Shown in pieces: positions 16,667 through 30,453 of a stretch of 64,000 nucleotides of DNA. The number at the start of each line of letters is the position of its first letter. The stretch's first letter is position 1. The notes under the pieces are model-generated. The model was given only the letters and a program-made list of their open reading frames with translations, ran no database searches and had not been told where the DNA came from. The stretch covers positions 434,001 to 498,000 of the forward strand of contig JASCOE010000002.1 of assembly GCA_029959285.1 (NCBI GenBank), written 5' to 3'. A program made the translations under genes and the position numbers. Source of the DNA: Flavobacteriaceae bacterium PS02337. GTDB lineage: Bacteria; Bacteroidota; Bacteroidia; Flavobacteriales; Flavobacteriaceae.

Positions 16667-16777
16667 TTATCCCAACCATCCTTCTCTATCCAAACTTCTA
16701 TATTGAATTGCCTCTGCAATATGCGATGAAACTATATTTGGTGCGTTATCTAAATCGGCAATAGTTCTCGAAACTTT
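16667..16777 (-). pseudogene. comM: comM (yifB), C-terminal remnant left of the island
   Basis: Read on the minus strand, this is the last 36 codons of the Mg-chelatase-like competence protein: [15 protein letters not shown], then [18 protein letters not shown] and a stop. This is the standard ComM/YifB C-terminus. Upstream of KVSRT the frame runs into island DNA. The N-terminal part is at 29557-30453 in the same orientation. Confidence 0.88.
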
Positions 16778-16836
16778 AATTATTATTTTTAATATATGGT
16801 TCATTTTGTTTTGTATTTTTACAAAAAATTAAATAA

Positions 16837-18333
16837 ATGAAAGCAGTTGCATATCTTCGAGTTAGTACGCAAGAACAATCTTTAGAAAGACAATATGAAG
16901 AAATTAAAGAATTTGCTTTTAAAAAGAATTTAGTACTTGCAAAAATATTTGAGGACAAAATAAGTGGTACAAAAACCAAAACTTATCAAAGAGATGGTTT
17001 TAATCAAATGAAAAAATACATAGAACTTAATGAGGATGTTAAACACATTTTATTTATTGAGCTTTCGAGAATTGGAAGAAAAAATAATGATATTCAAAAT
17101 GTTGTTGAGGAGTACACAGAAAAAGGAATTAACATTCACATTAAAGACTTAAACATCTCTACACTAGACGAAGAAGGTAAAATATCACTTGCTTCTGAAA
17201 TGATGATTTCGTTGTTAGGTGTAATGTCACATAACGAAGGACGACTTCTTGGTTCGAGAATAAGTTCTGGAAAAATGTCACGAGCAAGAAAAAACTTAGC
17301 TTTTGGTGGTAAAATTATTGGTTATAAAAAAGGAGAAAATGGCACACCAATGATTGATGATAAAGAATCCCCCATGATTGAAAAAATATTTGAATTTACT
17401 TCAAAAGGTCTTGGAATGCGCAATGTATCAGCAATGATTGAATCAGAATTTGGAATAAAAATTGCAATCGGAACATTAAGTGGCATCATAAGAAATAGTT
17501 TTCATAAAGGAGAAAGAAAATATCTAAATTTAGAACTTGATGTACCCGCAATAGTTTCTAAAGAATTGTGGCAAAAGGCAAATGATTCCATTAATAATAG
17601 AAGTAAGTTTGGAAGCAGGATTAACGTGAATACAAACATCTTGCATGGAAAAATTTATTGTGAATGCGGTAATGTTATGCATCAGAAGGTAATTCCCAAA
17701 GGAAGATTAGATGTTTTTATTTGCAAAGATGAAAAATGCAAAAATTCAATTAATAGACCGTGGTTATTTAGAATGGTACGAAAAGTTGTTGAAAGACATG
17801 CGCAAAAAACAAGAGATCAACAAGTTCGAGAAAACCTAAATATACAAATAGCTACATACAAAGCTAAAATTGATCTTAATAATAAAACAATTGAAAAGTT
17901 AAAAAACCGACAAAAAAAAGCACGAGACCTATATCTCGACTCAGAATACACTAAGGAAGAATACAATGAAATTAAAATTGAATCAATCATAAAAATAGAA
18001 GAATCTATTAATACTAATAATAAACTTCATGAAGTTATTAATGCTACGGAAAACGCCTTAAAAACAGATATTAAACATTTTAGCGATGACTTAGAATTAT
18101 TTAAAGTTGAGATTAAGGATATTATTAGTCATGTTATTATTAAAAAAGAAATTGTTTTAATAAATATTTTCGGATGGCGAGAATATGAACTATATAAACC
18201 TAATAGCACCAAACTTGGTTTTGAAGCTAGAAAACCATTAAATGAAAGATATCTTAATGAGGAACTTCCATTAAGATTTCCTATTGATGATGAAAATATA
18301 GAGATGATGATTGATGACTTTTTATCTAAATAA
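16837..18333 (+). CDS. Large serine recombinase (integrase of the island)
   Basis: 498 aa. The N-terminal resolvase domain starts KAVAYLRVSTQEQSLERQYE, with the nucleophile Ser10 and the SRIGRK arginine segment near residue 79. The recombinase domain covers about residues 140-270. A zinc-ribbon-like part (CECG and CKDEKC) sits near residues 275-305, then a long lysine-rich coiled coil at about 330-420. This is the architecture of phage- and transposon-type large serine integrases, which catalyse site-specific integration and excision. It begins 60 bases from the left comM junction. It is the likely enzyme that placed the island. Confidence 0.93.
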   Translation: MKAVAYLRVSTQEQSLERQYEEIKEFAFKKNLVLAKIFEDKISGTKTKTYQRDGFNQMKKYIELNEDVKHILFIELSRIGRKNNDIQNVVEEYTEKGINIHIKDLNISTLDEEGKISLASEMMISLLGVMSHNEGRLLGSRISSGKMSRARKNLAFGGKIIGYKKGENGTPMIDDKESPMIEKIFEFTSKGLGMRNVSAMIESEFGIKIAIGTLSGIIRNSFHKGERKYLNLELDVPAIVSKELWQKANDSINNRSKFGSRINVNTNILHGKIYCECGNVMHQKVIPKGRLDVFICKDEKCKNSINRPWLFRMVRKVVERHAQKTRDQQVRENLNIQIATYKAKIDLNNKTIEKLKNRQKKARDLYLDSEYTKEEYNEIKIESIIKIEESINTNNKLHEVINATENALKTDIKHFSDDLELFKVEIKDIISHVIIKKEIVLINIFGWREYELYKPNSTKLGFEARKPLNERYLNEELPLRFPIDDENIEMMIDDFLSK

Positions 18334-18495
18334 TGAATCGTAATTTAATTATATTAACAAATAAAATTCTTCGTTAAAAAGTAAAATATTTAATTTTACT
18401 CTATTTGTTTTAGGAAAAGAATATACAAAATTGACTATATAAAAAACTGATAAAAAACAATACTACTTTTTATTATCCATCGCACAATTAAACTT

Positions 18496-19395
18496 TCACA
18501 AGCTAAAATCAATCTCAGTTTGCTCATTGTCTTTATTAATTAGATGCTTTTTAAAACTAATTTCATCTTCAAAGATATACATACCTTTAAAAGGATTAGT
18601 TAATAATGTTTGAATTCCTGAATATTGCTCCAAATTATTCCATTCTTCTTTCATCTTATGCACCAACACTTGTCTTCCATATCTTTTGGCAAAATTAATT
18701 GTATGCATAGTTCCTGAATTTGTTCCCATTTCAATAGGTATAACGATATCTGATAAGGCTGATTGGATTCGGTTTCTTTGAACAAAACTTTTTTTACCTC
18801 TATTAATACCAAACATACTTTCTGAAATAAGACAACCTCCTGAATTTAGAATATCTATAGCTAATTCATAATTAGTAATTGGATATATCGAATCTAAAGA
18901 ATTAGGTAAAACTGCAATTGTATATTGATTATTTTTTAGAGCACATGAATGTGCAATAGTATCAATCCCCTCAGCAAGACCTGAAACAATTGAATACTTA
19001 TCTTGATTAAGCCAATTAACTACGTTTTTCGTATTTAAATTTGCAAAATTAGAAATCTCTCTACTCCCAACTACAGCGGCGGTTTTAGACTCTATGAATT
19101 TTCCTTTAACATATAATACGGGAGGAGCATCTTTAATTAACCTTAACTTCTTAGGATAATTATCGTCAAAAATAGACACAGCTTTAATTCTATGATATCT
19201 TAATTTTTGCAAACCAATTTTAGTTTTCTCAACAATTGAATTCAAATCTTTTGTATTCAATACCATACTATCTACACAAAATTCTAGAATTTTTTCTCTT
19301 TCTGTAAATTTTGACAAAGCTTCATACATTAAACCAATATCATAGTTGGTAACATACGTTAAAAATATTAAATCATGGACTTCTAACTTATTCAT
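18496..19395 (-). CDS. DprA/Smf-like Rossmann protein
   Basis: 299 aa. The DprA core is clear: VGSREISNFA, SIVSGLAEGIDTIAHSCAL, IAVLPNSLDSIYP, GGCLISES, FVQRNRIQSALSDIVIPIE and SGTMHTINFAKRYGRQVLV. A helical N-terminal segment of about 80 residues precedes it. The C-terminal winged helix of housekeeping DprA is missing. DprA proteins load RecA on incoming single strands, but stand-alone SLOG/DprA domains also occur in predicted nucleotide-sensing conflict systems. The ATG overlaps the stop of the HAD-PRTase gene by four bases (ATGA), so the two are made together and probably act together. Being on the island, it is unlikely to be the host dprA. Confidence 0.88.
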   Translation of the reverse strand: MNKLEVHDLIFLTYVTNYDIGLMYEALSKFTEREKILEFCVDSMVLNTKDLNSIVEKTKIGLQKLRYHRIKAVSIFDDNYPKKLRLIKDAPPVLYVKGKFIESKTAAVVGSREISNFANLNTKNVVNWLNQDKYSIVSGLAEGIDTIAHSCALKNNQYTIAVLPNSLDSIYPITNYELAIDILNSGGCLISESMFGINRGKKSFVQRNRIQSALSDIVIPIEMGTNSGTMHTINFAKRYGRQVLVHKMKEEWNNLEQYSGIQTLLTNPFKGMYIFEDEISFKKHLINKDNEQTEIDFSL

Positions 19396-20561
19396 AACAG
19401 AGCATCTTTCAGTGATTTTAAAATTTCTTCTGAGTTCTTATTATTTATTGTACCTCGTACTTCTGTATAATTTCCATTCTTTATATATGTGTAATTTGGT
19501 GAATATACATCTCCTTCTAAAGTATAATCATAAAGCTTATATGTATATTTAAATTTGCCTAGTGTAATAAAAATAACTCTATTTGCTCCTGCATGTTTTA
19601 ATAAGTGTCGTACAGTTTCACTTGAAGTTCCATGTGTACTAAAATCATCTATGATACAGAAATTTTTTCCTTTAATCTTTCCATTATAATAAGGATTAAG
19701 ATGAATAGAATCAAATTGTGAATTACAACCATCTAAAGAGCGGACATCAGGTGTTAATCTATTTCTTTTAACTGATACTTTATGACGGACAAGTAAGTCA
19801 TGAACTGTTCGACTTCCAAAAGACCTTCTTAAAATGTCTTTAATTGAGCTTAAAGCATCATTTGGCTTTCCGTCTGAAGATGGGTAATATGCCCAATAAT
19901 TAATATCTTTAATCTCCTTAAATATTCTATATATACTCAAAAGACTGTAAATTCTAAAAGGAGACTTTCCTTTATCAAATCCATCTTTTAAATGATTTCT
20001 TAAATGTTCGCAAATTTCAATTTCATTACTATCTTTCATTTGACCTGTCATGGCATTTGTTAAACCATATAGTGTAAATGATTCATCTACAGAATGAGAA
20101 AAAAACCATGGTTCATCAATATTTAGATAGTGATCGAAAAAATATTTGAGTCTCTCAACTGATAGAATACCTATGCCATACCCCCCCGTGTAAATTCTAT
20201 CAGCTGGATTGTTATTTCGTGCATAGTCTGCGGTAAGTAATAATATTCTAGCATTAGCTGCTAAAATCATATCATCCTCTTTAGATCCTAATACAATTAT
20301 GTCTTCAAAATTTATATTTAATTTAGAAGATATATATTCAATTAATTTTGGACTTCTTCTCAATGCCTTATTTCCCGAAAGATTTAATGTCTCAATTCCA
20401 TTGGGCATGATAGATAATGACTGAGCATGGTTTGATATCGCAACAACCCTATAATCTTCTTTTAAACTTTTAAAATATAATAAAGTTTCAATTATGTTTG
20501 GAAAAAAATCATTTGAAGTTTTATCAAACAAAGCATCAGGGTTGGTTATAATAAGCTTCAT
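19392..20561 (-). CDS. HAD-like plus phosphoribosyltransferase fusion protein
   Basis: 389 aa. Residues 1-130 look like a HAD domain: motif I TNPDALFD, motif II AISN and motif IV VLGSKEDDMILAANA. The usual nucleophile Asp of motif I appears as Asn7, so catalysis may be lost. Residues 160-389 end in a type I PRTase with the PRPP loop FCIIDDFSTHGTSSETV near residue 305, similar to ComF-type enzymes. The reaction and base are unknown. It is the first gene of a two-gene operon with the DprA-like protein and has its own -7 box. I know no named system with exactly this order. Confidence 0.82.
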   Translation of the reverse strand: MKLIITNPDALFDKTSNDFFPNIIETLLYFKSLKEDYRVVAISNHAQSLSIMPNGIETLNLSGNKALRRSPKLIEYISSKLNINFEDIIVLGSKEDDMILAANARILLLTADYARNNNPADRIYTGGYGIGILSVERLKYFFDHYLNIDEPWFFSHSVDESFTLYGLTNAMTGQMKDSNEIEICEHLRNHLKDGFDKGKSPFRIYSLLSIYRIFKEIKDINYWAYYPSSDGKPNDALSSIKDILRRSFGSRTVHDLLVRHKVSVKRNRLTPDVRSLDGCNSQFDSIHLNPYYNGKIKGKNFCIIDDFSTHGTSSETVRHLLKHAGANRVIFITLGKFKYTYKLYDYTLEGDVYSPNYTYIKNGNYTEVRGTINNKNSEEILKSLKDALL

Positions 20562-20588
20562 GTAATATTGAAGATTTTAGTTCTTTAA

Positions 20589-20596
20589 CAAATATA
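20589..20596 (-). promoter_or_regulatory. -7 box of the HAD-PRTase/DprA operon
   Basis: On the minus strand this reads TATATTTG, an exact TAnnTTTG match 28 bases before the ATG. No clear -33 TTTG is seen. The rest of the 279-base gap up to the XRE gene is AT-rich with nothing else recognised. Confidence 0.5.
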
Positions 20597-20840
20597 AACT
20601 TAATAACTAATTGAAATAATATTATTAAGTATAAAAATTAATTTAATTTTTAAAAGTCTTCGATTTAAAACTAATCAATTCAAAAACACACTTTTTAACC
20701 TTATTCATCAAAAAGTAAGTATTTAATAACTTTTCAAGATTTTTAATCGAATTTATAAATCAATAAGATTTTTCAAGTTTAAGTAACAATTTGTCGTAAT
20801 GAATTAAGTTGAAAAAACAATTTAGTTAGTACAAAATTAT

Positions 20841-21104
20841 CTACTCAATCACAAATAATTCTTTAATATCAATTTCAAGTGCTAACGAAAGCTTAATTAT
20901 TGTTGATAAGGTTACGTTAGTACGGGAATTTTCAATTCGTGAAATTGTACTCTTTTCAATGAATGAATCGGAAGTTAAATTATTCATAGCAGTCGCCAGA
21001 TCCAGTTGAGTCATCTGTTTGGATTCTCTAATAATCTTAAGGTTTTTTCCGAATAGATTTTTATATAATTCTATTTTTTTTAATTCTGTTGACATAGATG
21101 TCAA
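20841..21104 (-). CDS. XRE-family helix-turn-helix regulator
   Basis: 87 aa (or 84 from an internal Met). Single HTH domain: FGKNLKIIRESKQMTQLDLA, then EKSTISRIENSRTNVTLSTI, ending in IDIKELFVIE. It probably controls island genes. It lies upstream of the HAD-PRTase operon on the same strand and divergent from the 21220 gene, so either could be its target. Confidence 0.85.
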   Translation of the reverse strand: MTSMSTELKKIELYKNLFGKNLKIIRESKQMTQLDLATAMNNLTSDSFIEKSTISRIENSRTNVTLSTIIKLSLALEIDIKELFVIE

Positions 21105-21219
21105 TGATACTTCATATATTTACAGACAAGGTAAACATATGTGTCAACTTAAAAAGATAACTTTATTCTTACTTTTAAACTAAAAATATAAATTATTAAA
21201 AACAAACAAATTAAACAAA

Positions 21220-21753
21220 ATGAATAAATCAAAAACAATTATTGCTTTAATAGCTCTAACATTATCAATTAGTTTATCGGCACAAGTTGCTCCAACAACT
21301 GGCGAAAAAGTGCTAGAGGTAAAAGAAAGTTATTCTGGTGAATATCTTCAAATAGTCAATCAAGGAAATCTTTCGGACGTAGTTGTAAAAGCTATTACTG
21401 AAAGAATACCAAAAAAAATCGCTAAATATGGTTTTTCAGATATTACTATCTCTGAAGTTGGTCAAGTTCCATCTCCTGAAAATTGGACTGATAAATTGGC
21501 TAAAAGTTCTGGATTGAATACAAATAGAGCCAAAGGAGAAAATATGTTAAAACTTGCATCTACAACAACTGAAATAATTGCAGCAATTAATAAAATGTAT
21601 GAACCAGATGGAAATGAAGGAAATTGGAAATTTCAAGTAAATTTTATTGACAACGTTTCAAAAGAAACATACAAAGTTAGAATAAATATGATGTATAATC
21701 CTATATATATTATTAAAAAAAGCGATCTAATAAAAGATACAGACAAAAGCTAG
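21220..21753 (+). CDS. Secreted hypothetical protein of the island
   Basis: 177 aa with a signal peptide (KTIIALIALTLSISLSAQ). The mature part has alternating charged and hydrophobic residues, an NWTDKLAKSSGLNTNRAKG stretch and a beta-type C-terminus (KVRINMMYNPIYII). No family is recognised. It is followed by a broken lipoprotein gene. Confidence 0.65.
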   Translation: MNKSKTIIALIALTLSISLSAQVAPTTGEKVLEVKESYSGEYLQIVNQGNLSDVVVKAITERIPKKIAKYGFSDITISEVGQVPSPENWTDKLAKSSGLNTNRAKGENMLKLASTTTEIIAAINKMYEPDGNEGNWKFQVNFIDNVSKETYKVRINMMYNPIYIIKKSDLIKDTDKS

Positions 21754-21791
21754 CAATTTTATTCAAAACTTAACCAAAATAATAAAGTAAA

Positions 21792-22180
21792 ATAAAACTA
21801 CTACTAATTATACTATTTAGCACAATAAGTTGTACTCAACAATGTAAATTAGAAAATTTGTTGAAAACAACGTAAAAAGTAAATTAAGTGACCCAGCGAG
21901 CTTTGAACTGATAAGTTTAAGGCAGGAAAAAACCGAGACAGTTAATATTTTATTCGAAAATATAAAAGAGGAAGTAAAAATAAGAAAACTAAATTATGAT
22001 AAATATGGAGATAGTGAAAGTACAAGTAAATACAATTTAGCCAAGAAAACACAAGATAATCTTTTTAAAGTAAATAACGGAAGTACCGTTTATGTAACAT
22101 ATAAGTATCGTGCTAAAAATTTAATTGGCGGTATAGTTAATGAAACCAAGTTTTCTTTTATCGACTTAATTAAAATATAA
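21792..22180 (+). pseudogene. Broken small lipoprotein gene
   Basis: A lipoprotein signal (KLLLIILFSTISC) is encoded from 21795, but the codon where a start would sit is ATA (21792). The frame ends after QQCKLENLLKTT. Adding one A to the four-A run at 21853-21856 joins it to the rest, KLEKFVENNVKSKLSDPASF through KFSFIDLIKI, ending at 22180. The repaired protein would be about 130 aa. It therefore carries two lesions, loss of ATG and a one-base deletion. A terminator still follows it. Confidence 0.7.
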
Positions 22181-22188
22181 AATAATGA

Positions 22189-22214
22189 AAAAAGGCACCC
22201 ATGGGTGTCTTTTT
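22189..22214. terminator. Terminator after the broken lipoprotein gene
   Basis: AAAGGCACCCATGGGTGTCTTT forms a stem with one G-U pair, with A and T runs at either side. It can serve both the plus-strand gene and the minus-strand resolvase. Confidence 0.8.
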
Positions 22215-22243
22215 AGTTACTGTTAAATTCCACAATATTCTGA

Positions 22244-22831
22244 CTAAATCATAGTTTTTATCTTTCTGATTGTATTGATTGAAAGATTTGTTAATTTGCT
22301 CAATTGACTTAATGAAAAAGACTCATTTCTAATAAATTTTATTTCAGCTTTATATTTACTTAAAAAATCATCATTAGTCTCTTTAATACCCTTAACTCTC
22401 CCCTTATATTTACCTTGTAATTTAGCTATTGCAATACCCTCCGCAATTCTTTCTTTAATAGACTCTCTTTCAATTTGAGATACGTTTGCCAATAGGTCAC
22501 AAATCATCTTAAAAATTGGGTTCTGTTTTCCGTCGATTCTTGAATGTAATCCAAGATTCTCTACAATTAGATTTACGTTTTGTTCATTTAATAATTCCAT
22601 CGTAGTTTGGATATCAAATGCATTTCGACCTAATCTATCAACTGAATGAACTACAATTGTTTTAATTTTTCCAATTCTAACATCCTCTAAAAGTTTGATT
22701 GCTTGTGGTCTTTCGATAAATGGGACTACTCCAGATATTATGTCGAAATACTCAATCATCGAAGAGTCCCTCTGTCTACTTTCATTTTGTCCATTTGTAG
22801 ATATCCTAATATATTTTGCTGTTGCTATCAT
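22244..22831 (-). CDS. Small serine recombinase (Tn3/Hin-type resolvase)
   Basis: 195 aa from the ATG at 22831. It has the catalytic Ser11 in AKYIRISTNGQNESRQ, VVHSVDRLGRNAFD, a long E-helix with IERESIKERIAEGIAIAKLQ, the GRVKG linker and a C-terminal HTH (SLSQLSKLTNLSINTIRKI). A longer start (TTG at 22855) falls inside the -7 box and is rejected. It may resolve multimers or invert DNA in the island, or belong to an older nested element. Confidence 0.9.
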   Translation of the reverse strand: MIATAKYIRISTNGQNESRQRDSSMIEYFDIISGVVPFIERPQAIKLLEDVRIGKIKTIVVHSVDRLGRNAFDIQTTMELLNEQNVNLIVENLGLHSRIDGKQNPIFKMICDLLANVSQIERESIKERIAEGIAIAKLQGKYKGRVKGIKETNDDFLSKYKAEIKFIRNESFSLSQLSKLTNLSINTIRKIKTMI

Positions 22832-22852
22832 ATTGTATTTATTTTCAAAATA

Positions 22853-22885
22853 CAAATATAATGTATTTTCCTACAATATATCAAA
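22853..22885 (-). promoter_or_regulatory. Promoter of the resolvase
   Basis: On the minus strand there is TTTG (22885-22882), 21 bases, then TATATTTG (22860-22853), about 20 bases before the ATG. Confidence 0.6.
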
Positions 22886-23130
22886 AATAGCCTCATATCT
22901 TTTGATACTATAAGATGCTAAGGAATTCGTTAGTGACCATATGAAATCTCATATTAATTTTTAAGTATAATCTATTATTGCACATCTCACGATGATAGAT
23001 ATTACAGCCTAGTTCTTTGCTAAAGTTGAAATTCAAATATTAACAACTATATTTCAATGGGCATCACAAATTCTGATTCTTTGGATTTACCAAAGATTGC
23101 CAGATTTGTTGGGCATAAAAAAACGAGACC

Positions 23131-23277
23131 TTAGCCTCGTGATTTTGATTGCAGTAATTCAGAAAGTTCCGAAAGTTCTTTAACCGTAAAATTTGTTCCT
23201 TTATAACTGATTGGAAATTTCAGCTTTTCACTTTTAAGAATTTTCTTTAACTGTGAAATTGTCAGTATTAATTTCAT
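23131..23277 (-). CDS. 48-aa ORF coupled to the Rep-like gene
   Basis: MKLILTISQLKKILKSEKLK starts it and SKSRG ends it, with a central FPISYKGTNFTVKELSELSE. Its ATG overlaps the TGA stop of the Rep-like gene (ATGA), a classic coupled arrangement. Its stop lies in a hairpin (ACGAG / CTCGT) followed by seven Ts on the minus strand, so it ends the transcript. The sequence is helical and basic, with no known domain. The gap at 22886-23130 to its right holds nothing else recognised. Confidence 0.6.
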   Translation of the reverse strand: MKLILTISQLKKILKSEKLKFPISYKGTNFTVKELSELSELLQSKSRG

Positions 23278-23909
23278 AATGCTATTGTTTTATTTTTTCC
23301 TATAAAATCCCAATCCTCTCCATTAAGACCTTCCTTGGACATATAGAATAATCCTGCTTTATATTTATCATACTGACTCACATCTGTTCTGTCATAATGA
23401 AAATACTCCTGAATATCAGTGATGATTTCCTGATGCAGTTTTTTATCTTCGATATAAACGACAAAATGGTTGTGGTAGCCTGTTCGATTGGCAAATGGCT
23501 CGGTAGTAAAGAAAATTCTTAAATCTGTGGTATTTCCATATTTTTCGCTCAGATACTCATAAACCCCATGCATCTGCTTGAAACAGCTGTTCTTTTTACG
23601 GTCGAGCTTATAGGCAACTGTAAAAAAGAAACTCCAATCCATCCGCCAGAGCGTGTATTGCAGACTGTTTTTATCTTCCAAACAATCAATCAGATTTCTC
23701 ATAGACTGATTTTCCTGTCTTAAAATCTTGTTCTGGTCAAACATGACCTCACTGTCAAAGTATCTGGCATGGTCTGCTGGAAACAATCTTTTTCCATTCC
23801 TCATTCTGGTATCAGAAAACAAATCCTCATTTCTCTTATAGAAACGGTATATCTTACTTTTGCTTGTTTTAGTATTCTTTGTAAATTCTATTATATTCTC
23901 ATATTTCAT
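23274..23909 (-). CDS. Putative HUH-type replication/mobilisation protein
   Basis: 211 aa from the ATG at 23909; the frame extends to 23963 with a low-complexity lead. The N-terminus is a MerR-like HTH (NTKTSKSKIYRFYKRNEDLF, then GKRLFPADHARYF). The C-terminal half has MDWSFFFTVAY, TGYHNHFVVYIED with a His-x-His pair, and a distal KYKAGLFYMSKE Tyr segment. This order resembles rolling-circle Rep or relaxase-like HUH enzymes, which nick DNA with a Tyr. The match is by motif only. A GC-rich hairpin region sits just upstream and could be its origin. Confidence 0.6.
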   Translation of the reverse strand: MKYENIIEFTKNTKTSKSKIYRFYKRNEDLFSDTRMRNGKRLFPADHARYFDSEVMFDQNKILRQENQSMRNLIDCLEDKNSLQYTLWRMDWSFFFTVAYKLDRKKNSCFKQMHGVYEYLSEKYGNTTDLRIFFTTEPFANRTGYHNHFVVYIEDKKLHQEIITDIQEYFHYDRTDVSQYDKYKAGLFYMSKEGLNGEDWDFIGKNKTIAL

Positions 23910-24199
23910 TATTTTAAATGTGTTTGTATTCTTTATATTACTGTTCAGACACAAGAACTCCATACAAGGGGATTAATCAAGCATCTATACAATAAATACT
24001 AACAAATCTTCCAAAGTATATCTTATTGGCACATTTTTTTAAAAAATATTTTTTTTCGGATGCAGAAATTACTGTTTCAAAGTGACACAGCTAACATGCA
24101 GATGCAGGTTATTTAAAAAAAATTTGCTTACGGCATCAAAGGAATACTTAAATACCGTTATGAACACATCTTGTAAGAAAAGTAACCAACAAATAAAAA

Positions 24200-24320
24200 A
24201 TGCAGAATTTTGTCCTGAGGGTACGCCCCTGCGGGGTCTCGGGTCAGGGGCTGTCTGGCTTTCTTAATTAAGGCTTTTTCTTATATACGTGCTCGAAGCA
24301 CCTCCTAAAGTAGGTTAATT
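24200..24320. other. GC-rich hairpin cluster, possible origin of the island
   Basis: In the 500-base gap 23910-24408 there is an abrupt GC-rich patch: CCTGAGG, CGCCCCTGCGGGG and CTCGGGTCAGGGGC, which can fold in several ways. The perfect palindrome GTGCTCGAAGCAC (24290-24302) follows. It lies upstream of the putative HUH protein, so a replication or nicking origin is plausible. A 61-codon open frame across it looks incidental. Confidence 0.4.
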
Positions 24321-24354
24321 CGCATTTTAACACCCGTTTTTGACCTAATAAATG

Positions 24355-24386
24355 CAAAAAACCACCCTGTTATGGAGTGGTTTTTT
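24355..24386. terminator. Terminator of the two-lipoprotein operon
   Basis: AAAACCAC / GTGGTTTT with an 11-base loop and flanking A/T runs, 23 bases past the stop of the minus-strand gene at 24409. Confidence 0.75.
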
Positions 24387-24408
24387 GAGAACTATTAACG
24401 TTGCGTAG

Positions 24409-24981
24409 CTATCTGCAAGAAGGACAGGAGCTTCTTCTGGCTTCACTACAACATTTCCTTGAGCAGTAATAACCTATTGATGTTGTGGCATTTGTACTGT
24501 AACAGTCCGACATTTTACCTAAATGAGTATAATGCTCCCCACTAAATGACTTTCCGCACCATGAGCACGTCTTGCTTGCAGAATAGGAGCTACTGACTGA
24601 AGTGCTTTCATTTGAATATTCCTCAGCGGGTTTGGACATTTTATTGAAATATGAAATTTTCTGGTCAATATCTTTTAACACTTCATCGTTATTAATCGGA
24701 AATCCTCTTTTATTGGATTCAGCAGTGTAATCTTCCACATCCTTTTTCAGCTTGGCATAATCGGTAACTAATCTGTCATACTCCCAATCCATTTTAATCG
24801 TATCTTCTCTAGCAATGAGCTTGTCATACTCCACAATGCACGTTTTCTTCTTGGCTTGTAAATCAGATGGCTGATTATTACAACCGACTGATAAAATAGA
24901 AATCATCAGGACTAAGGTAATTTGGTAGAGCATCCTGTAATCTGCTTTCTGCTTTAGTTTTCTTAAAATTGATTTTCTCAT
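24409..24981 (-). CDS. Lipoprotein with a C-terminal Cys-rich (zinc-ribbon-like) tail
   Basis: 190 aa. A basic N-terminus of about 20 residues precedes a hydrophobic stretch and lipobox SVGC (about residue 34). The middle is helical and charged (YDKLIAREDTIKMDWEYDRL). A Ser-rich linker leads to the tail TCSWCGKSFSGEHYTHLG and then YYCSRKCCSEARRSSCPSC, which could bind metal through CxxC pairs. Such a tail on an exported lipoprotein is unusual. It follows the 25021 gene by 39 bases on the same strand. Confidence 0.7.
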   Translation of the reverse strand: MRKSILRKLKQKADYRMLYQITLVLMISILSVGCNNQPSDLQAKKKTCIVEYDKLIAREDTIKMDWEYDRLVTDYAKLKKDVEDYTAESNKRGFPINNDEVLKDIDQKISYFNKMSKPAEEYSNESTSVSSSYSASKTCSWCGKSFSGEHYTHLGKMSDCYSTNATTSIGYYCSRKCCSEARRSSCPSCR

Positions 24982-25020
24982 CCTTATTCTGCTTTATGGG
25001 TCTGAATTTTAGTTTTTATT

Positions 25021-26451
25021 TTAATTAGCATCGATTTCTAAGAAATAAACATTCCCCTTTACGTAAAAGAATTTGCCTTCTATTCCCGGAATAAAGCCTG
25101 TGACTTTTGACCCTGCATAAATCCTCATTTTCCTGTCCTTTGCTTCTGCGAACGGAATATCCATGTCCCGCTCATACAGTTCATATATCTGCGGTTCATT
25201 TCTTCCATTGTCAATTTTAATCTGCGCTCCGTAATATTCTTTAATATCATTCCCTTCGTGCATCTGCTCTTCCAAAGTGCCGTACAATAAAACCCATATT
25301 TTCCCCTGAGGGACAGTCATTTCATCTGAACACCATCTATTGATATTACCGACCATATTGCTCCTTTTCCACATACCCGTTTTGGTCTTATTATCCCATT
25401 GCAGGGTTATTATTTTTTCATTAACCCCTAATTCCTGTCCGTTCCAGACCACTTTATTTAAAACTGCTGGAGTCTCTGGCTGGGATTGGGATAGTGTATC
25501 GATTTTTGAAACCGTCTGTGGTGCACTCTCTGTGTCATTATCTCCGTAATATTCGATAGTGCGCTCTACAATATAGCCTGGATAGTCTGCATTGTTGTCG
25601 CTTGTTCTCTTTATCCAGTTGCCATGCTTATCAAATTCATACTTGTAATTGATTTTGTAGTACTCTGAACCATCCAGATTTTTGGCGCTCTCTTGGATTA
25701 AATTATCATTTTCATCATACACGAAATAATTCATCTGAAACTGATTTGCTTTTAAATCAAAGCATTTGCCCTCTTCAATTTTATTATTTCTCTGGTCGTA
25801 TTTAAAGATTTCCGTGGTGGCTCTTTTACCGTCTTTCTGGGTCTGCTGTTGGAAAATCACATTGTTATTTGCATCGTATTTGTAAGTCGTTTTGCTTGGA
25901 TTAAAATCAAGTGCTTTGACATCCAATTTCTCTATAACATTCTTTTTCCCATCGTATTTGTATTGGTATTTTCTGCTGATATAGGGGCTTCCCGAATTAT
26001 TATAGGTCATATTTTCTTCCAGCAGGTTGTTTTTTTCATCGTATTTATAAGAAATAACTGATTCTAATCCGCCAGTTAGATTATATTCCTTTGTTTCTAT
26101 CACGTTATTTTGCGGGTCAAGCTTATATGTGGTCAGTGTTTTATACGCATCGCCCTCGCTACTGCCTGTTTCTTCCTTTTCTATGATATTATGTTTTTCA
26201 TCTCTTTTGTACCTCGAATGTTTTGGAAAATCAGATTCTTTTATATCGGTCTCAATTTCATACCCGCTGAGATTATAAGTTATATTACTGTAGAAGAATC
26301 CATTACTATCTCTAGTCGAAATGGATTTTACTTTTCCTCTTAGTTTAGCCTTTACTAGGTCGTTATCATATTTGCTCTCCATGTTTTTGCAAGCCGAAAA
26401 AAGCAATGCTATCAAAAATGATACGATGAAAATTGAGTCTTTTTTTCTCAT
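25021..26451 (-). CDS. YD-repeat lipoprotein
   Basis: 476 aa. Lipobox ALLFSAC near residue 20. Residues 40-300 are about nine imperfect repeats built around YKYDxxNNxIEE, in the style of RHS/YD repeats (for example YKYDEKNNLLEENMTYN and YKYDANNNVIFQQQTQKD). The C-terminal 140 residues form a separate domain (WNGQELGVNEKIITLQWDN to VKGNVYFLEIDAN). It is surface or periplasmic with an unknown role. It begins 109 bases from the divergent XRE gene, with an operator-like palindrome between. Confidence 0.78.
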   Translation of the reverse strand: MRKKDSIFIVSFLIALLFSACKNMESKYDNDLVKAKLRGKVKSISTRDSNGFFYSNITYNLSGYEIETDIKESDFPKHSRYKRDEKHNIIEKEETGSSEGDAYKTLTTYKLDPQNNVIETKEYNLTGGLESVISYKYDEKNNLLEENMTYNNSGSPYISRKYQYKYDGKKNVIEKLDVKALDFNPSKTTYKYDANNNVIFQQQTQKDGKRATTEIFKYDQRNNKIEEGKCFDLKANQFQMNYFVYDENDNLIQESAKNLDGSEYYKINYKYEFDKHGNWIKRTSDNNADYPGYIVERTIEYYGDNDTESAPQTVSKIDTLSQSQPETPAVLNKVVWNGQELGVNEKIITLQWDNKTKTGMWKRSNMVGNINRWCSDEMTVPQGKIWVLLYGTLEEQMHEGNDIKEYYGAQIKIDNGRNEPQIYELYERDMDIPFAEAKDRKMRIYAGSKVTGFIPGIEGKFFYVKGNVYFLEIDAN

Positions 26452-26494
26452 TTTGTTATGATTTCTTAATTTGATTTTTTGATGTTAATTTTTA

Positions 26495-26525
26495 CAAATA
26501 TATAAATTATAGCACAAGTGCTATA
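26495..26525 (-). promoter_or_regulatory. Promoter of the lipoprotein operon with perfect operator palindrome
   Basis: On the minus strand the -7 box TATATTTG is at 26502-26495. Just upstream is TATAGCACAAGTGCTATA (26508-26525), a palindrome with 8-bp arms around AA. It lies between two divergent genes, one encoding an XRE regulator, and is the natural binding site for it. Confidence 0.6.
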
Positions 26526-26559
26526 ACAATTTTCATGTTTATATCTTCATTTTGATAAA

Positions 26560-26832
26560 GTGAAAAAAGATGAAACTAAATCCAGAAAATTAATCTTCGA
26601 CCAAGAAGGATTACAATTGTTAGCGAAACGATTAAAAGAGATACGTGCAGAAAAAGGAATATCGCAAGAAGAACTTGCTTATCGTTCTGAAACAACTTTA
26701 TCACAAATCGCTAGGATAGAAACCGTAAGAATAAATCCAACTGTCAGTACTATATTCAAAATTGCTAGAGCATTAGATATTCCTCCAAGTGAAATATTTA
26801 ATTTTGAATTAAATCCATTTACAATTGATTAA
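26560..26832 (+). CDS. XRE-family helix-turn-helix regulator
   Basis: 90 aa with a GTG start. HTH: LLAKRLKEIRAEKGISQEEL, then AYRSETTLSQIARIETVRIN and STIFKIARALDIPPSEIFNF. It is divergent from the YD-repeat lipoprotein. The shared gap contains a perfect palindrome that it probably binds to control both directions. Confidence 0.88.
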   Translation: MKKDETKSRKLIFDQEGLQLLAKRLKEIRAEKGISQEELAYRSETTLSQIARIETVRINPTVSTIFKIARALDIPPSEIFNFELNPFTID

Positions 26833-26917
26833 AGTCCTTAAAAAATTATATATTTACGTACACCCCAACTTATAATTCTCTATACTATTTAATGATTCAC
26901 TTAAAAAAATTAGAAAT

Positions 26918-27124
26918 ATGAGTACGTATTTTTCTTTAACAGTTCCTGATTCAAAGGAGCTATTAAATCCAAACATTAAAAGATTTGTTATTCAACAACA
27001 AAAATCATTTGAAATTATACCAACTAAAGACGGCACTATTTATCAGATTGAATTCACTTCAGAATTACAGAAAAAATCATTTGAAATACAACTGAATGAA
27101 AAATTCCCGTTTTTGTTTTATTAA
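26918..27124 (+). CDS. Hypothetical protein, 68 aa
   Basis: MSTYFSLTVPDSKELLNPNI starts it. It is small and soluble, with two similar QQKSFEI / QKKSFEI segments. No domain is recognised. It is downstream of the XRE gene with an 85-base gap that includes the weak -7-like TATATTTA. Its 3' end contains the -33 of the next promoter. Confidence 0.5.
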   Translation: MSTYFSLTVPDSKELLNPNIKRFVIQQQKSFEIIPTKDGTIYQIEFTSELQKKSFEIQLNEKFPFLFY

Positions 27125-27142
27125 ATTTATTTATTAAATTTG
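27112..27142 (+). promoter_or_regulatory. Strong-consensus promoter of a short transcript
   Basis: TTTG (27112-27115), 19 bases, TAAATTTG (27135-27142): an exact Bacteroidota consensus. The predicted start near 27149 gives a leader of about 95 bases with the small palindromes TAAATAAGTATGATTTATTTA-like (ends 6 bp) and GCATTTTAAATGC. Confidence 0.6.
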
Positions 27143-27242
27143 CAACGTAGTAAATAAGTATGATTTATTTACAACGGCATTTTAAATGCATCATACACAT
27201 TTAAAGTGAGAAAGTTTAAAAATCTTCTAAAAACAAATAAAA

Positions 27243-27368
27243 ATGTTAACAAGAAGGTATTTTACAAAAGAAAACATAACATTTTTCATTTTGGTTTACC
27301 AATTTCTATTGGATGACCTTTTACCAAAATTGATAAAACTGATTGAATTTCTTACAAAATTAGCATAA
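27243..27368 (+). CDS. 41-aa hydrophobic small ORF
   Basis: It starts MLTRRYFTKENITFFILVYQ and ends LIKLIEFLTKLA: a basic N-terminus, then an amphipathic or membrane-type helix. It has a consensus promoter upstream and a perfect 12-bp terminator five bases downstream. A degenerate relative lies at about 29360-29500. The profile fits a small membrane peptide, such as a type I toxin, but the RNA itself could be the functional product. Confidence 0.45.
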   Translation: MLTRRYFTKENITFFILVYQFLLDDLLPKLIKLIEFLTKLA

Positions 27369-27372
27369 AATT

Positions 27373-27410
27373 CAAACCCTTACGGCTAGCAACGTAAGGG
27401 TTTGTCATTT
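27373..27410 (+). terminator. Terminator of the short transcript
   Basis: The perfect 12-bp stem CAAACCCTTACG / CGTAAGGGTTTG has an 8-base loop, then a T-rich tail. A decayed copy (CAAACCCTTATGG, then AAGTTTTTTTTT) is at about 29490-29524. Confidence 0.85.
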
Positions 27411-27414
27411 TATT

Positions 27415-27505
27415 TAAAATTGCTTTCTTCCAGTCCCTATCAACCTTTATCTTCATTTTAATCCTGTAATCTCCCCAACGCAATGAACCCTGTTATCAAG
27501 GTTAA
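27415..27505 (-). repeat. Element-end repeat, copy 1
   Basis: About 75% identical by eye to 29528-29612 on the minus strand. In one frame both encode GDY-IKMK-KV--DW-K, with many differences at third positions, so both look like leftover 3' ends of the same gene. In this copy stops lie just upstream. Confidence 0.6.
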
Positions 27506-27565
27506 TTACTTATATCGATTAAGAATATTTTAAGCTACCTAAATTAATTTAGGCAACTTTTTATT

Positions 27566-27964
27566 TTAGTTTTTAACCAATCTAATTGATTCTGAAATTC
27601 TTTCCGTGTAAACAGATTTATCATTAGTAACAAATGTTATTTCATCTCCATTAATCTGTATCACCTCAACAGACTCGGAATCAACTTTAAACTCTAAGGT
27701 TGATTTTAAATTGCTAAGCCTGATAAATTCTGGCTGTATCGAATGACGAGTGTTAAAGTCAAAAGGAATTTTCCTATCTCTCTTAAAAATCGGGATATCT
27801 GCGCTAACCAAATAACTTCTCAAAAAATCAACAGTACTAGCGGTTTCGTTATCTTGCGAAACTCTTGATAAAAATACTTTTAAATTCTCTGGTTCGTGAA
27901 GTTTATCTATTGCTCCATCAAATTTATATTCGAAATGTGCTTTAAATGGAATTAATCCTGTCAT
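27566..27964 (-). CDS. Hypothetical protein, 132 aa
   Basis: Soluble protein starting MTGLIPFKAHFEYKFDGAID and ending ERISESIRLVKN, predicted mixed alpha/beta. No family is recognised. It sits 13 bases after the 81-aa gene on the same strand, so the two form a small operon. The hairpin AGCTACCTAAATTAATTTAG (27533-27552) extended by GCAACT lies beyond its stop. Confidence 0.6.
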   Translation of the reverse strand: MTGLIPFKAHFEYKFDGAIDKLHEPENLKVFLSRVSQDNETASTVDFLRSYLVSADIPIFKRDRKIPFDFNTRHSIQPEFIRLSNLKSTLEFKVDSESVEVIQINGDEITFVTNDKSVYTERISESIRLVKN

Positions 27965-27977
27965 TTTATTTTAGTTA

Positions 27978-28223
27978 TTAAGTTAGTAAATTTTGTATTT
28001 CTTCTATCGCTGATTCAAGTAAGGCTTTATTATTATCGTTAGGAAAATTTGAATAATTTTTCGCAATCTCAACGTAATTCATATGAGCACTCATTTGTTC
28101 TGTCACCGACTTTTCTTTAAATCGGGCTGGCGGTGTAGACATAATCTCTAAGTATGCGCCTTTTATATTTCCTCTATCACTTTCAAGAAGATTTTTGAAA
28201 TTTTTTATATATTTTGATTCCAT
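27978..28223 (-). CDS. Hypothetical protein, 81 aa
   Basis: Mostly helical, charged (YIKNFKNLLESDRGNIKGAY and EQMSAHMNYVEIAKNYSNF). No domain is recognised. It is the first gene of a pair with the 132-aa protein. It faces away from the predicted RNA promoter at 28290. Confidence 0.55.
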   Translation of the reverse strand: MESKYIKNFKNLLESDRGNIKGAYLEIMSTPPARFKEKSVTEQMSAHMNYVEIAKNYSNFPNDNNKALLESAIEEIQNLLT

Positions 28224-28289
28224 ATATACTCTATAATCTTTTTAATATTTTATTATTTTCTACTTTTGTTTTATAAACACAAACTTTTG

Positions 28290-28320
28290 TTGTGATTTGT
28301 AATTATTTTTTATACCTTTG
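28290..28320 (+). promoter_or_regulatory. Promoter of a possible non-coding RNA
   Basis: TTG (28290-28292), 20 bases, TACCTTTG (28313-28320), an exact TAnnTTTG. No gene of useful length follows on this strand for 530 bases. Confidence 0.55.
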
Positions 28321-28326
28321 CGCCTG

Positions 28327-28660
28327 TTATAAGTTTTATATAGAGCCGATGTTTGCAACCACCGACTCTAAAAGTTAAACAAATACAGCTAATTACGATA
28401 ATTAGCCAATAAACTAAATGTAGCTCCTAGCAATCACAGCCACATTTATGTAATTTATAAGTTTTGTATATATACTTACAAACTGCTGGAAGATTTGTAA
28501 CAAAAATTCCTCCACAAATAATTAAGACAAACTGACTTATCATTCTTTGTTGGTTTTAGTTAAATTCGAAGGTTTAGCGCCTTCCTCGCCAAGAACATTT
28601 GCCTCCCAAAAGACAATAAAAAATCACGACTACCTCAGTAGTCGAGTATCAAGCTATTTT
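28327..28660 (+). ncRNA. Candidate structured RNA of about 330 nt
   Basis: It sits in a 630-base gene-free gap and follows a consensus promoter. Possible stems, in order: TAGAGCCG with CGACTCTA (28341-28370), GCTAATTA with TAATTAGC (28388-28406, perfect), AAATGT with ACATTT (28416-28447), TTTGTA with TACAAA (28473-28492), GAAGG with CCTTC (28568-28584), and CGACTAC with GTAGTCG on a CTCA loop (28627-28644), followed by a T tract. The only frames inside are tiny (a 9-codon frame at 28350). It matches no RNA family I recognise. AT-rich DNA gives chance stems, so this stays tentative. Confidence 0.4.
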
Positions 28661-28852
28661 TCCGAAATTTTTTAAGTCGCGAATTTAATCATAATATTTC
28701 TTACCATCTAATTTTTGACTATAAATTATTGTTAAATTTTTTGGTGTTTAAAAATTATTTTTGTAAAATACGCGAAAAATTATTTTTTTTGACATCATAC
28801 TATTATTTACTCCCTAAAAATTACAATTAACCATTATTTAAAATTGAAATAT

Positions 28853-29113
28853 ATGACCGAAGAAGAAATAAAAGAAATAATACAAAATTACAGGATAAAA
28901 AGAACGACATACAACAATGAATGCAATCATATTACAAAGGAATGGCAAGAAGGAAGGATGTATTCATTTAATCTAGATGCTCAAATGAAAGAACTGCACT
29001 ATGATTTTAAGAATAGTATTGAAAAGAAAAACCATGACAAATTAAAAGAGTACTGCAAGAATGACCTAAAAAACGAACAAATTTATGAACGGCTTCATAG
29101 AGAAATCTGGTAA
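28853..29113 (+). CDS. Hypothetical protein, 86 aa
   Basis: From the ATG at 28853 (a TTG at 28844 is also open). Highly charged and helical: MTEEEIKEIIQNYRIKRTTY, a central ITKEWQEGRMYSFNLDAQMK and ending YERLHREIW. The -7-like TATTTTTG is at 28756-28763. No family is recognised. A strong terminator follows. Confidence 0.6.
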   Translation: MTEEEIKEIIQNYRIKRTTYNNECNHITKEWQEGRMYSFNLDAQMKELHYDFKNSIEKKNHDKLKEYCKNDLKNEQIYERLHREIW

Positions 29114-29119
29114 TAACAA

Positions 29120-29154
29120 AATAATAAAGGGTGATTAAATCACCCTTTATTATT
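29120..29154. terminator. Bidirectional terminator, 15-bp perfect stem
   Basis: AATAATAAAGGGTGA and TCACCCTTTATTATT around a 5-base loop, between two convergent genes. Confidence 0.88.
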
Positions 29155-29281
29155 TCTCCCAGCCACATAGCTTTGTATAACCACGTTGATTAGCATCTTT
29201 CAAACTGATTTTTTTTATCTCGTGAGTACATTCTTTTAATCCTTTACAACTTGGTGATAAATGACACTTAGAAGCAGTCAT
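29150..29281 (-). CDS. 43-aa Cys-rich small protein
   Basis: Sequence features in order: MTASKCHLSPSCKGLKECTH, then EIKKISLKDANQRGYTKLCG and WEK. Four Cys and two His suggest a small metal-binding or disulfide knot. Its stop lies inside the shared terminator hairpin. The SLKDAN-x-GYTKLCGWE ending looks like a conserved motif. The function is unknown. Confidence 0.5.
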   Translation of the reverse strand: MTASKCHLSPSCKGLKECTHEIKKISLKDANQRGYTKLCGWEK

Positions 29282-29329
29282 GCTAAAACATATATATACA
29301 TCCGAATTATTAGCTCAAGATGTAAAAAG

Positions 29330-29612
29330 ACTAAAAAAAATGATTTGCAGTAATGTTTTCATATGTTAAGAAGATTTTTACGAAATAAAATTTACTGATT
29401 TTTATGATGTCACATCAATACATCTCACAGGTATTAATGCCCGACTTAATAAAATTTTTTAAATTTCTAACGCATCTATAGAACAAAACACAAACCCTTA
29501 TGGCTTACCATATAAGTTTTTTTTTATTTTACTCTAAAGTTATTTTATCCCAGTCTTTAGTTACTTTTACCTTCATCTTTATACTGTAATCGCCCCCACA
29601 CATTGAACTCTG
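29330..29612. repeat. Element-end repeat, copy 2 (decayed)
   Basis: A degenerate version of 27240-27505. It starts at a start-like ATGTTAAGAAGATTTTTACG, contains AAATTTCTAACG and CAAACCCTTATGG, and ends with the minus-strand segment coding GDYSIKMKVKVTKDWDK. It abuts the comM N-terminal fragment and so marks the outer right end of the island. The rest of the gap 29282-29556 shows nothing else. Confidence 0.5.
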
Positions 29613-30453
29613 CTTCCTTCGAAATAGTATGATGAGGACTTCTAAAAGGTCTTTGATTCATTAGTCCAACTTCTTTTAATTTTCCGGCAACGCTATGAAT
29701 TTTAGTGGTTTCCAAAGCTTCACGTAAAGTCATTGGCGGTAAAATACTCGGAACACGTTTTGCCAGCATTGTTTTTCCTGCTCCAGGAGGACCAATCAAA
29801 ATAATATTATGACCGCCCGCTGCCGCAATTTCCATACAACGTTTGATACTTTCTTGTCCGCGGACATCTGAAAAATCAAATTCTGGAAAATCTAATGTTT
29901 TATAAAATTCAGATCTTGTATCGATTACAGTTGGTTGTAAAGTTCCTTTTCCTGCAAAAAAATCAATTATTTCTTTTAGATTTTCAACGCCATAAACATC
30001 TAAACCAGATACAATTGCGGCTTCTTTTACATTTTGAATTGGGAGAAAAAATCCTTTATATCCTTCTTCTTTCGCTTTTATCGCAATCGGCAAAGCGCCG
30101 CGAATAGGCTGCAGACTTCCGTCTAAAGAAAGTTCGCCCATAATAATATATTGTTCAATTTCTGGAGCTTTAATCTGATCTGAACCAACCAAAATTCCCA
30201 TTGCCAAAGTCAAATCATAAGAAGAACCTTCTTTTCGAAGATCGGCAGGCGCCATATTAATTGTAATTTTCTTTCCCGGAAAATTTAATCCGTTGTTTTT
30301 TAAAGCGGCGGCAATTCTATAACTGCTTTCTTTTATCGCATTATCTGGAAGTCCAACTAAATGATAACCAATTCCTTTATCCATATGAACCTCAACTGTA
30401 ATTGTTGTGGCCTCAACTCCAAAAACAGCACTTCCGTAAACTTTTACTAACAT
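29557..30453 (-). pseudogene. comM: comM (yifB), N-terminal part, truncated by the island
   Basis: 298 codons. The first 278 are native ComM: MLVKVYGSAVFGVEATTITV, the Lon-protease-like ChlI N-domain, then Walker A LIGPPGAGKTMLAKR near residue 215 and RPFRSPHHTIS. After HHTIS the family continues DVALVGGG, but here the frame enters island DNA (KEAEFNVWGRLQYKDEGKSN) and stops. ComM is a helicase that helps integrate DNA taken up by natural transformation. Without the Walker B and sensor parts it should be inactive. The C-terminus is at 16667. Confidence 0.92.

Follow-up and report, generated by a model that had tools for sequence, protein, structure and literature searches.

Do two overlapping genes in the genome of Flavobacteriaceae bacterium PS02337 encode an undescribed nucleotide-based system, as an earlier note on their sequence proposed, or do they belong to a system that already has a name? 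The genes lie in a 64,000-nucleotide stretch of DNA, called the window below. The first, shosT (19392..20561, minus strand), encodes a 389-aa toxin candidate with a HAD-like N-terminus and a C-terminal phosphoribosyltransferase (PRTase) domain. The second, shosA (18496..19395, minus strand), encodes a 299-aa DprA/SLOG Rossmann protein with a helical N-terminus, in which no winged-helix tail was found.

The profile and structure searches that the note suggested name both proteins as ShosTA components, and structures of ShosT and ShosA lead the matches. Because profiles, PDB matches and fold searches all name ShosTA, a pairing of DprA and PRTase with its own profiles and solved structures, the reading as an undescribed system is wrong and that candidate is closed. 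Sequence, fold, gene linkage and phylogeny make it very likely that the two genes form a ShosTA toxin-antitoxin system for phage defence, with its function predicted. Specifically, the window pair is a diverged member of ShosTA, and its putative mechanism is transferred by analogy from ShosTA of E. coli.

The gene pair and its two proteins

Both frames, of 389 and 299 aa, are open on the minus strand in the order shosT then shosA, and they share a stop/start overlap of ATGA (19392..19395, minus strand), just as had been described; the end originally given for the pair, 20596, lies 35 bases upstream of the shosT ATG. Comparison with the F. nitrogenifigens pair (75% and 80% identity) yields dN/dS values of 0.096 and 0.084, which are rough because dS, at 1.8 and 1.4, is near saturation. 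The corresponding values for the pairs of F. terrigena and F. sp. SM15 are 0.21 and 0.25. By this measure both genes look constrained, and not like chance frames. Upstream of shosT, a Bacteroidetes-type promoter pattern, as known in general, was absent from the five loci examined.

An island gene for an 87-aa HTH regulator (20841..21104, minus strand) lies upstream of shosT and was considered as a third component. This candidate was rejected: in F. nitrogenifigens the homologue is on the far side of shosA, about 6 kb away, and a phmmer search with the regulator found no homologue in the Tunicatimonas stretch. An annotated HTH gene is present upstream of shosT in the latter.

The 389-aa protein matches the PADLOC model PDLC03962 (E 4e-42), and its only clearly significant PDB sequence matches are to ShosT (E 2.3e-9). 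The ShosT structures 8zvc, 8zvd and 8zvb are the first three matches in a fold search with its model, while the PRTase models of Pfam and NCBIfam match weakly, below cut-off. The proposed fusion of a HAD-like domain to a PRTase with a PRPP loop is upheld by these matches and by the presence of the loop, KNFCIIDDFSTHGTSS, near residues 299-315. The acidic pair DD of this loop is aligned in 20 of the 20 family rows that cover it (L052, the wrong ORF for its locus, is left out). Structure comparison backs a HAD-like fold for about residues 1-148, as judged from a model of modest confidence (mean pLDDT 67) that aligns to 8zvc over model residues 1-377 with an rmsd of 7.3. The protein shares only about 20% identity with E. 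coli ShosT.

Catalytic HAD phosphatases carry an Asp as the motif I nucleophile. In the window protein Asn7 holds this position, as placed by sequence alignment alone, and the earlier note had seen it there too. The assignment of the position stands, whereas its reading as an unusual loss or as a sign of a new system does not, since the family has Asp at this position in only three of 19 rows. The column holds Ser in ten rows (including E. coli and P. fragi), Phe or Tyr in four, Asp in three, Asn in the window row and a gap in one (L009, which reads Ser in another alignment), in a tally of 19 of 21 rows that leaves out L052 and L054 as wrong or partial pieces and in which the N-terminal alignment of the lactobacillus and Enterococcus rows is uncertain. 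All three Asp rows, from Streptomyces avidinii, S. cadmiisoli and Embleya, are actinomycete plasmids. All six Bacteroidota rows retain the second motif I Asp (D9), and 19 of 19 rows the motif IV Asp97. Because 16 of the 19 rows lack Asp at the first motif I position, classical HAD catalysis appears unlikely, and in most of the ShosT family the domain is most likely no classical Asp-nucleophile phosphatase. It may serve in ligand binding or in shaping the toxin.

The 299-aa protein matches PF02481 (DprA, 2.1e-54) and the PADLOC model PDLC03961 (E 2e-72). As had been noticed from the sequence, it appears to lack the winged helix: no DprA_WH match was found at E values up to 1, and this model is likewise unmatched in ShosA of F. 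nitrogenifigens, Tunicatimonas and E. coli. The housekeeping DprA of the same genome scores 21.7 bits with DprA_WH, just under the 22.9 cut-off. Against the housekeeping DprA model TIGR00732 the window protein, the only one scored, reaches 167.2 bits, with a cut-off of 191.15. ShosA 8zva is the first match by E-value in the fold search (5.3e-18), only slightly ahead of DprA 3maj, which has the higher TM-score on the query (0.80, versus 0.73 for 8zva).

In a tree of 33 DprA-domain proteins, which leaves out L052 and takes as housekeeping rows the best PF02481 match in each of 11 genomes, the window ShosA falls within a Bacteroidota ShosA clade of six (100/99) and outside the group formed by the 11 housekeeping DprAs (93/94). 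Streptomyces avidinii and Embleya (the Embleya row being a 476-aa ORF that exceeds the annotated gene in length) fall closer to the housekeeping group. The ShosA-linked rows do not form a single branch on the best tree, where three changes are counted; a single clade of 19 ShosA-linked rows and the second Sinorhizobium DprA is merely unrejected (p-AU 0.204) in a tree with several long branches.

Linkage, distribution and the competence relatives

The neighbourhood survey proposed in the earlier note was carried out on 22 distinct ShosT-like loci: the window, all six loci from genome_contigs and 15 of 39 plasmid records. Six loci that repeat others (L004, L006, L048, L049, L050 and L051) were dropped from the co-occurrence count, and one of three phage records, which nearly repeats the E. 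coli plasmid copy, was not counted. ShosT has a DprA-like ORF as its neighbour at 20 of the 22. The two exceptions are L047, with only a weak 33.6-bit match, and L056, whose record starts 177 bases before ShosT; the DprA match of L052 is spread over two overlapping ORFs, and in L054 ShosT is in two ORFs. ShosT comes first in all six Bacteroidota loci and on one Streptomyces plasmid, DprA comes first in 12 loci, and the genes are divergent on one Embleya plasmid. The Bacteroidota genes overlap by four bases in five of the six loci and by one base in F. terrigena.

ShosT is rare in the genomes surveyed. It was found in four of 399 genomes of Flavobacterium, the genus to which the window's genome belongs (E <= 1e-10), and in one of 395 across the phylum, the window's own, and an alignment scan of genome_contigs recovered only the six loci. 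Plasmids are a further source, with ShosT-like genes in 39 records. A search of viral_contigs with a single protein as query confirmed no relative, and the three phage records matched weakly.

Two related arrangements were also observed. On the Streptomyces and Embleya plasmids L055 and L061, where the motif I Asp is kept, the ShosT-like gene adjoins both a DprA and a ComF-family gene, possibly as a three-gene variant. At L072/L005 (G016:C8), a second DprA (a 332-aa frame) and a weak ShosT-like PRTase match are separated by about 1 kb, and the two are perhaps a more distant pair.

Some care is required in reading profile matches for this family. PDLC03962 is unspecific on its own: probably due to ComF, it gives matches in 391 of 395 genomes and also in 13 of 14 controls. 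PDLC03961 also matches the genome's housekeeping DprA at 4.4e-63, not far from the value for the window protein. Thus, neither model by itself separates ShosT from ComF-like proteins or ShosA from housekeeping DprA, and counts that rest on one of them could be inflated.

This cross-matching, together with the fact that DprA and ComF are competence proteins, is what speaks for reading the pair as housekeeping genes that serve DNA uptake. We regard that reading as very improbable. The genome has a separate 366-aa housekeeping DprA and a 240-aa ComF-like gene, both on contig C11 (the latter at 98.6 bits, below the curated ComF cut-off, as are the ComF matches in 12 of 14 control genomes). The window's DprA-like protein stands apart from the housekeeping DprAs in the tree, and its pair occurs in few genomes of the genus and in an island, not among native competence neighbours. 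Still less credible, and rejected here, is a system of the PsyrTA/RqlHI type, in which a DprA-like antitoxin is joined to a helicase toxin. The PsyrA profile does match the DprA-like protein (5.1e-26), but the ShosA profile does so far better, and no helicase is seen in its partner: the PsyrT match has an E value of only 0.05, and the HAD-like and PRTase fold speaks against such a toxin.

An island in comM

The earlier note had placed the pair on an integrated island, and its boundaries bear this out. An element of about 12.8 kb (16784..29610) is inserted in the DNA-uptake gene comM, splitting it into a 3' fragment of codons 474-511 (16670..16783, minus strand) and a 5' fragment of codons 1-281 (29611..30453, minus strand). 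In the relatives G015 and G006 comM is uninterrupted, with 511 codons aligned and the same left neighbours as in the window. A tblastn search of the window did not recover codons 282-473, and with full comM as query the whole genome yielded only the piece of codons 1-281 at E <= 1e-20; PF01078 marks two weak places on contig C8, just over cut-off, at odds with that search.

A large serine recombinase (16837..18333, plus strand) sits at the left end of the island, adjoining the comM 3' fragment, and is its probable integrase; a small resolvase/invertase (22244..22855, minus strand) lies farther inside. A search for a shared att core gave nothing longer than 7-8 bp. On the window's island PADLOC found no other convincing defence gene: a type I methyltransferase match at 25021-26451 reaches 21 bits only, and HTH/control-protein models match at 26560-26832 and 20841-21104. 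Just inside the right end, a stretch of about 167 bases is directly repeated with 71% identity (27330-27492 and 29446-29612).

Four of the five Flavobacteriaceae ShosTA loci lie in or beside a broken comM. The gene is split in three in F. nitrogenifigens (G609), into codons 1-283, 278-477 and 475-511. The second and third pieces flank the ShosTA element, which has beside codon 475 a serine recombinase that is 31.6% identical to the window's over query residues 2-496, and a second element with its own serine recombinase sits at about codon 280 (G609:C140:46001-103999, L092-L094). On its left side the window's island joins comM at the same codon as the ShosTA element of F. nitrogenifigens, in both cases next to a serine recombinase, and its right junction falls where F. 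nitrogenifigens has the second element. A deletion between two elements would be the simplest reading of the window.

In F. terrigena (G575), 27.7 kb that include ShosTA separate comM codons 1-148 from codons 141-511, and a search of this locus for the window's large recombinase found no homologue, only one of the small resolvase. In Ulvibacter, a comM piece of codons 1-285 is located 2.7 kb upstream of shosT; the stretch examined lacks the remainder of the gene, and no recombinase homologue was seen there. An EcoRI-type adenine methylase (L043 4552-5610) lies between this comM fragment and ShosTA. In F. sp. SM15 comM is whole and ShosTA lies elsewhere. Breaks in comM across the genus fall at several codons (about 145, 205-230, 280 and 475), and a serine recombinase stands beside the break at four junctions that were looked at, one in the window, two in G609 and one in G001.

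Among 150 genomes of the genus, comM was matched (E <= 1e-20) in 143 and not in seven. It is full length in 125 of the 143 and incomplete in 18, the window's genome included, by hand counts in which some of the 18 reflect contig breaks or poor assemblies. comM is broken in three of the four ShosTA carriers and in 17 of 141 other genomes (Fisher 0.008). For comM pieces lying far apart on one contig the counts are three of four and at least five of 141 (Fisher 0.0004), a value that is too favourable because five is a lower bound. The test was formed after the data were seen, the carriers are few, a common origin is possible for the window and F. nitrogenifigens cases, and the non-carrier status of the 141 genomes rests on the sampling of the genus ShosT survey. 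For these reasons the enrichment of ShosTA at broken comM is a lead, not a result.

Predicted function and known systems

The earlier guess that the pair is defence cargo agrees with its placement in ShosTA. In the relevant passages of PMC9122126, a DprA and PRTase system from a P2-like phage hotspot is reported to protect against T7 and lambda, and its authors, who cite shosTA, propose DprA as a sensor of phage DNA that activates the PRTase. ShosTA is listed among systems activated by a phage ssDNA-binding protein in part of PMC10732053, is described in a Pf phage in an excerpt of PMC11878078 and appears in a table of PMC10286901; a review, in the section concerned, reports PRTase/pyrophosphatase activity of ShosT on the purine pool.

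By analogy with the E. coli literature, ShosT would use PRPP at its PRTase site, unbalance the purine nucleotide pool, damage DNA, and kill or stop the cell. ShosA, a DNA-binding DprA relative, would normally counteract ShosT; its predicted role is that of antitoxin and probable sensor. Phage takeover would then tip the balance, halting the infected cell and keeping the phage from being multiplied. In Bacteroidota we infer that shosT is translated first and that shosA is translationally coupled to it through the short ATGA overlap, and therefore that no toxin would be made without antitoxin. The pair would act as cargo of a comM island with a serine recombinase at one end.

Two other readings accept the family and change what the pair does. 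ShosTA might be mainly an addiction module that ensures retention of the island in the chromosome, phage defence being a lesser role. The toxin-antitoxin layout fits this, as do the ShosT-like genes on plasmids and the disruption of comM, given that mobile genetic elements (MGEs) in comM are discussed, in part of PMC4774983, as blocking a transformation process that can delete them; the report of phage defence by E. coli ShosTA (PMC9122126, in the passages cited above) weighs against it, and we consider it possible but unlikely. We judge it more doubtful that the pair has a changed effector output, for example through a HAD-like domain active on a different nucleotide. The low identity to E. 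coli ShosT and the retention of D9 and Asp97 would suit such a change, yet the PRPP loop and overall architecture are conserved and the motif I column makes classical HAD catalysis unlikely.

A broader proposal joins these strands: comM would be a hotspot in Flavobacteriaceae for islands, several with serine recombinases, and ShosTA a favoured cargo of those that break comM; a DprA-like antitoxin that could sense the very ssDNA or recombination intermediates through which the island risks removal would let the pair guard both island and cell. Taken as a whole we think this rather improbable. If true, the element would disable a late step of transformation by its insertion while also carrying a DprA-like/ComF-like toxin-antitoxin pair, which would protect the island from loss through DNA uptake and the cell from phage. 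Should a wider survey agree, the breaking of competence genes by mobile elements would extend to another phylum, and comM islands would be linked to a defence pair. Judging by titles in a limited literature collection, no paper was found on ShosTA in Flavobacterium, nor on comM insertion or transformation in that genus.

Among known systems, ShosTA of E. coli is closest. It has the same HAD-like and PRTase toxin architecture, an antitoxin that is likewise DprA-like with no DprA_WH match, and adjacent genes on mobile DNA, and its structures rank top for both window proteins. It differs in that the antitoxin gene comes first, whereas all six Bacteroidota loci have the toxin first; in Ser at motif I, where the window has Asn; and in its location in a P2-like phage rather than an island in comM. 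The diverged Bacteroidota clade, with its reversed gene order, should be useful for comparing toxin and antitoxin balance. The toxin of PsyrTA/RqlHI is a helicase, unlike the HAD-like and PRTase protein of the window; its partner is likewise a DprA-like antitoxin, according to the text cited from PMC9122126. ComF and DprA of natural transformation have the same two folds, PRTase and DprA-like Rossmann, but the island pair has a HAD-like domain and a phylogenetic branch of its own, and the housekeeping copies are separate.

MGEs inserted in comM are known from Aggregatibacter and others, and are discussed there as inhibiting transformation, by which MGEs can be deleted (PMC4774983, in part); defence systems, too, interrupt the gene in Acinetobacter (PMC11472951, in part). 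Compared with these, the present elements are found in Flavobacteriaceae, at several insertion codons, with serine recombinases at four junctions and ShosTA as cargo. Thus, ShosTA itself is already known, and what is new is its genomic context, the toxin-first order and the broken comM.
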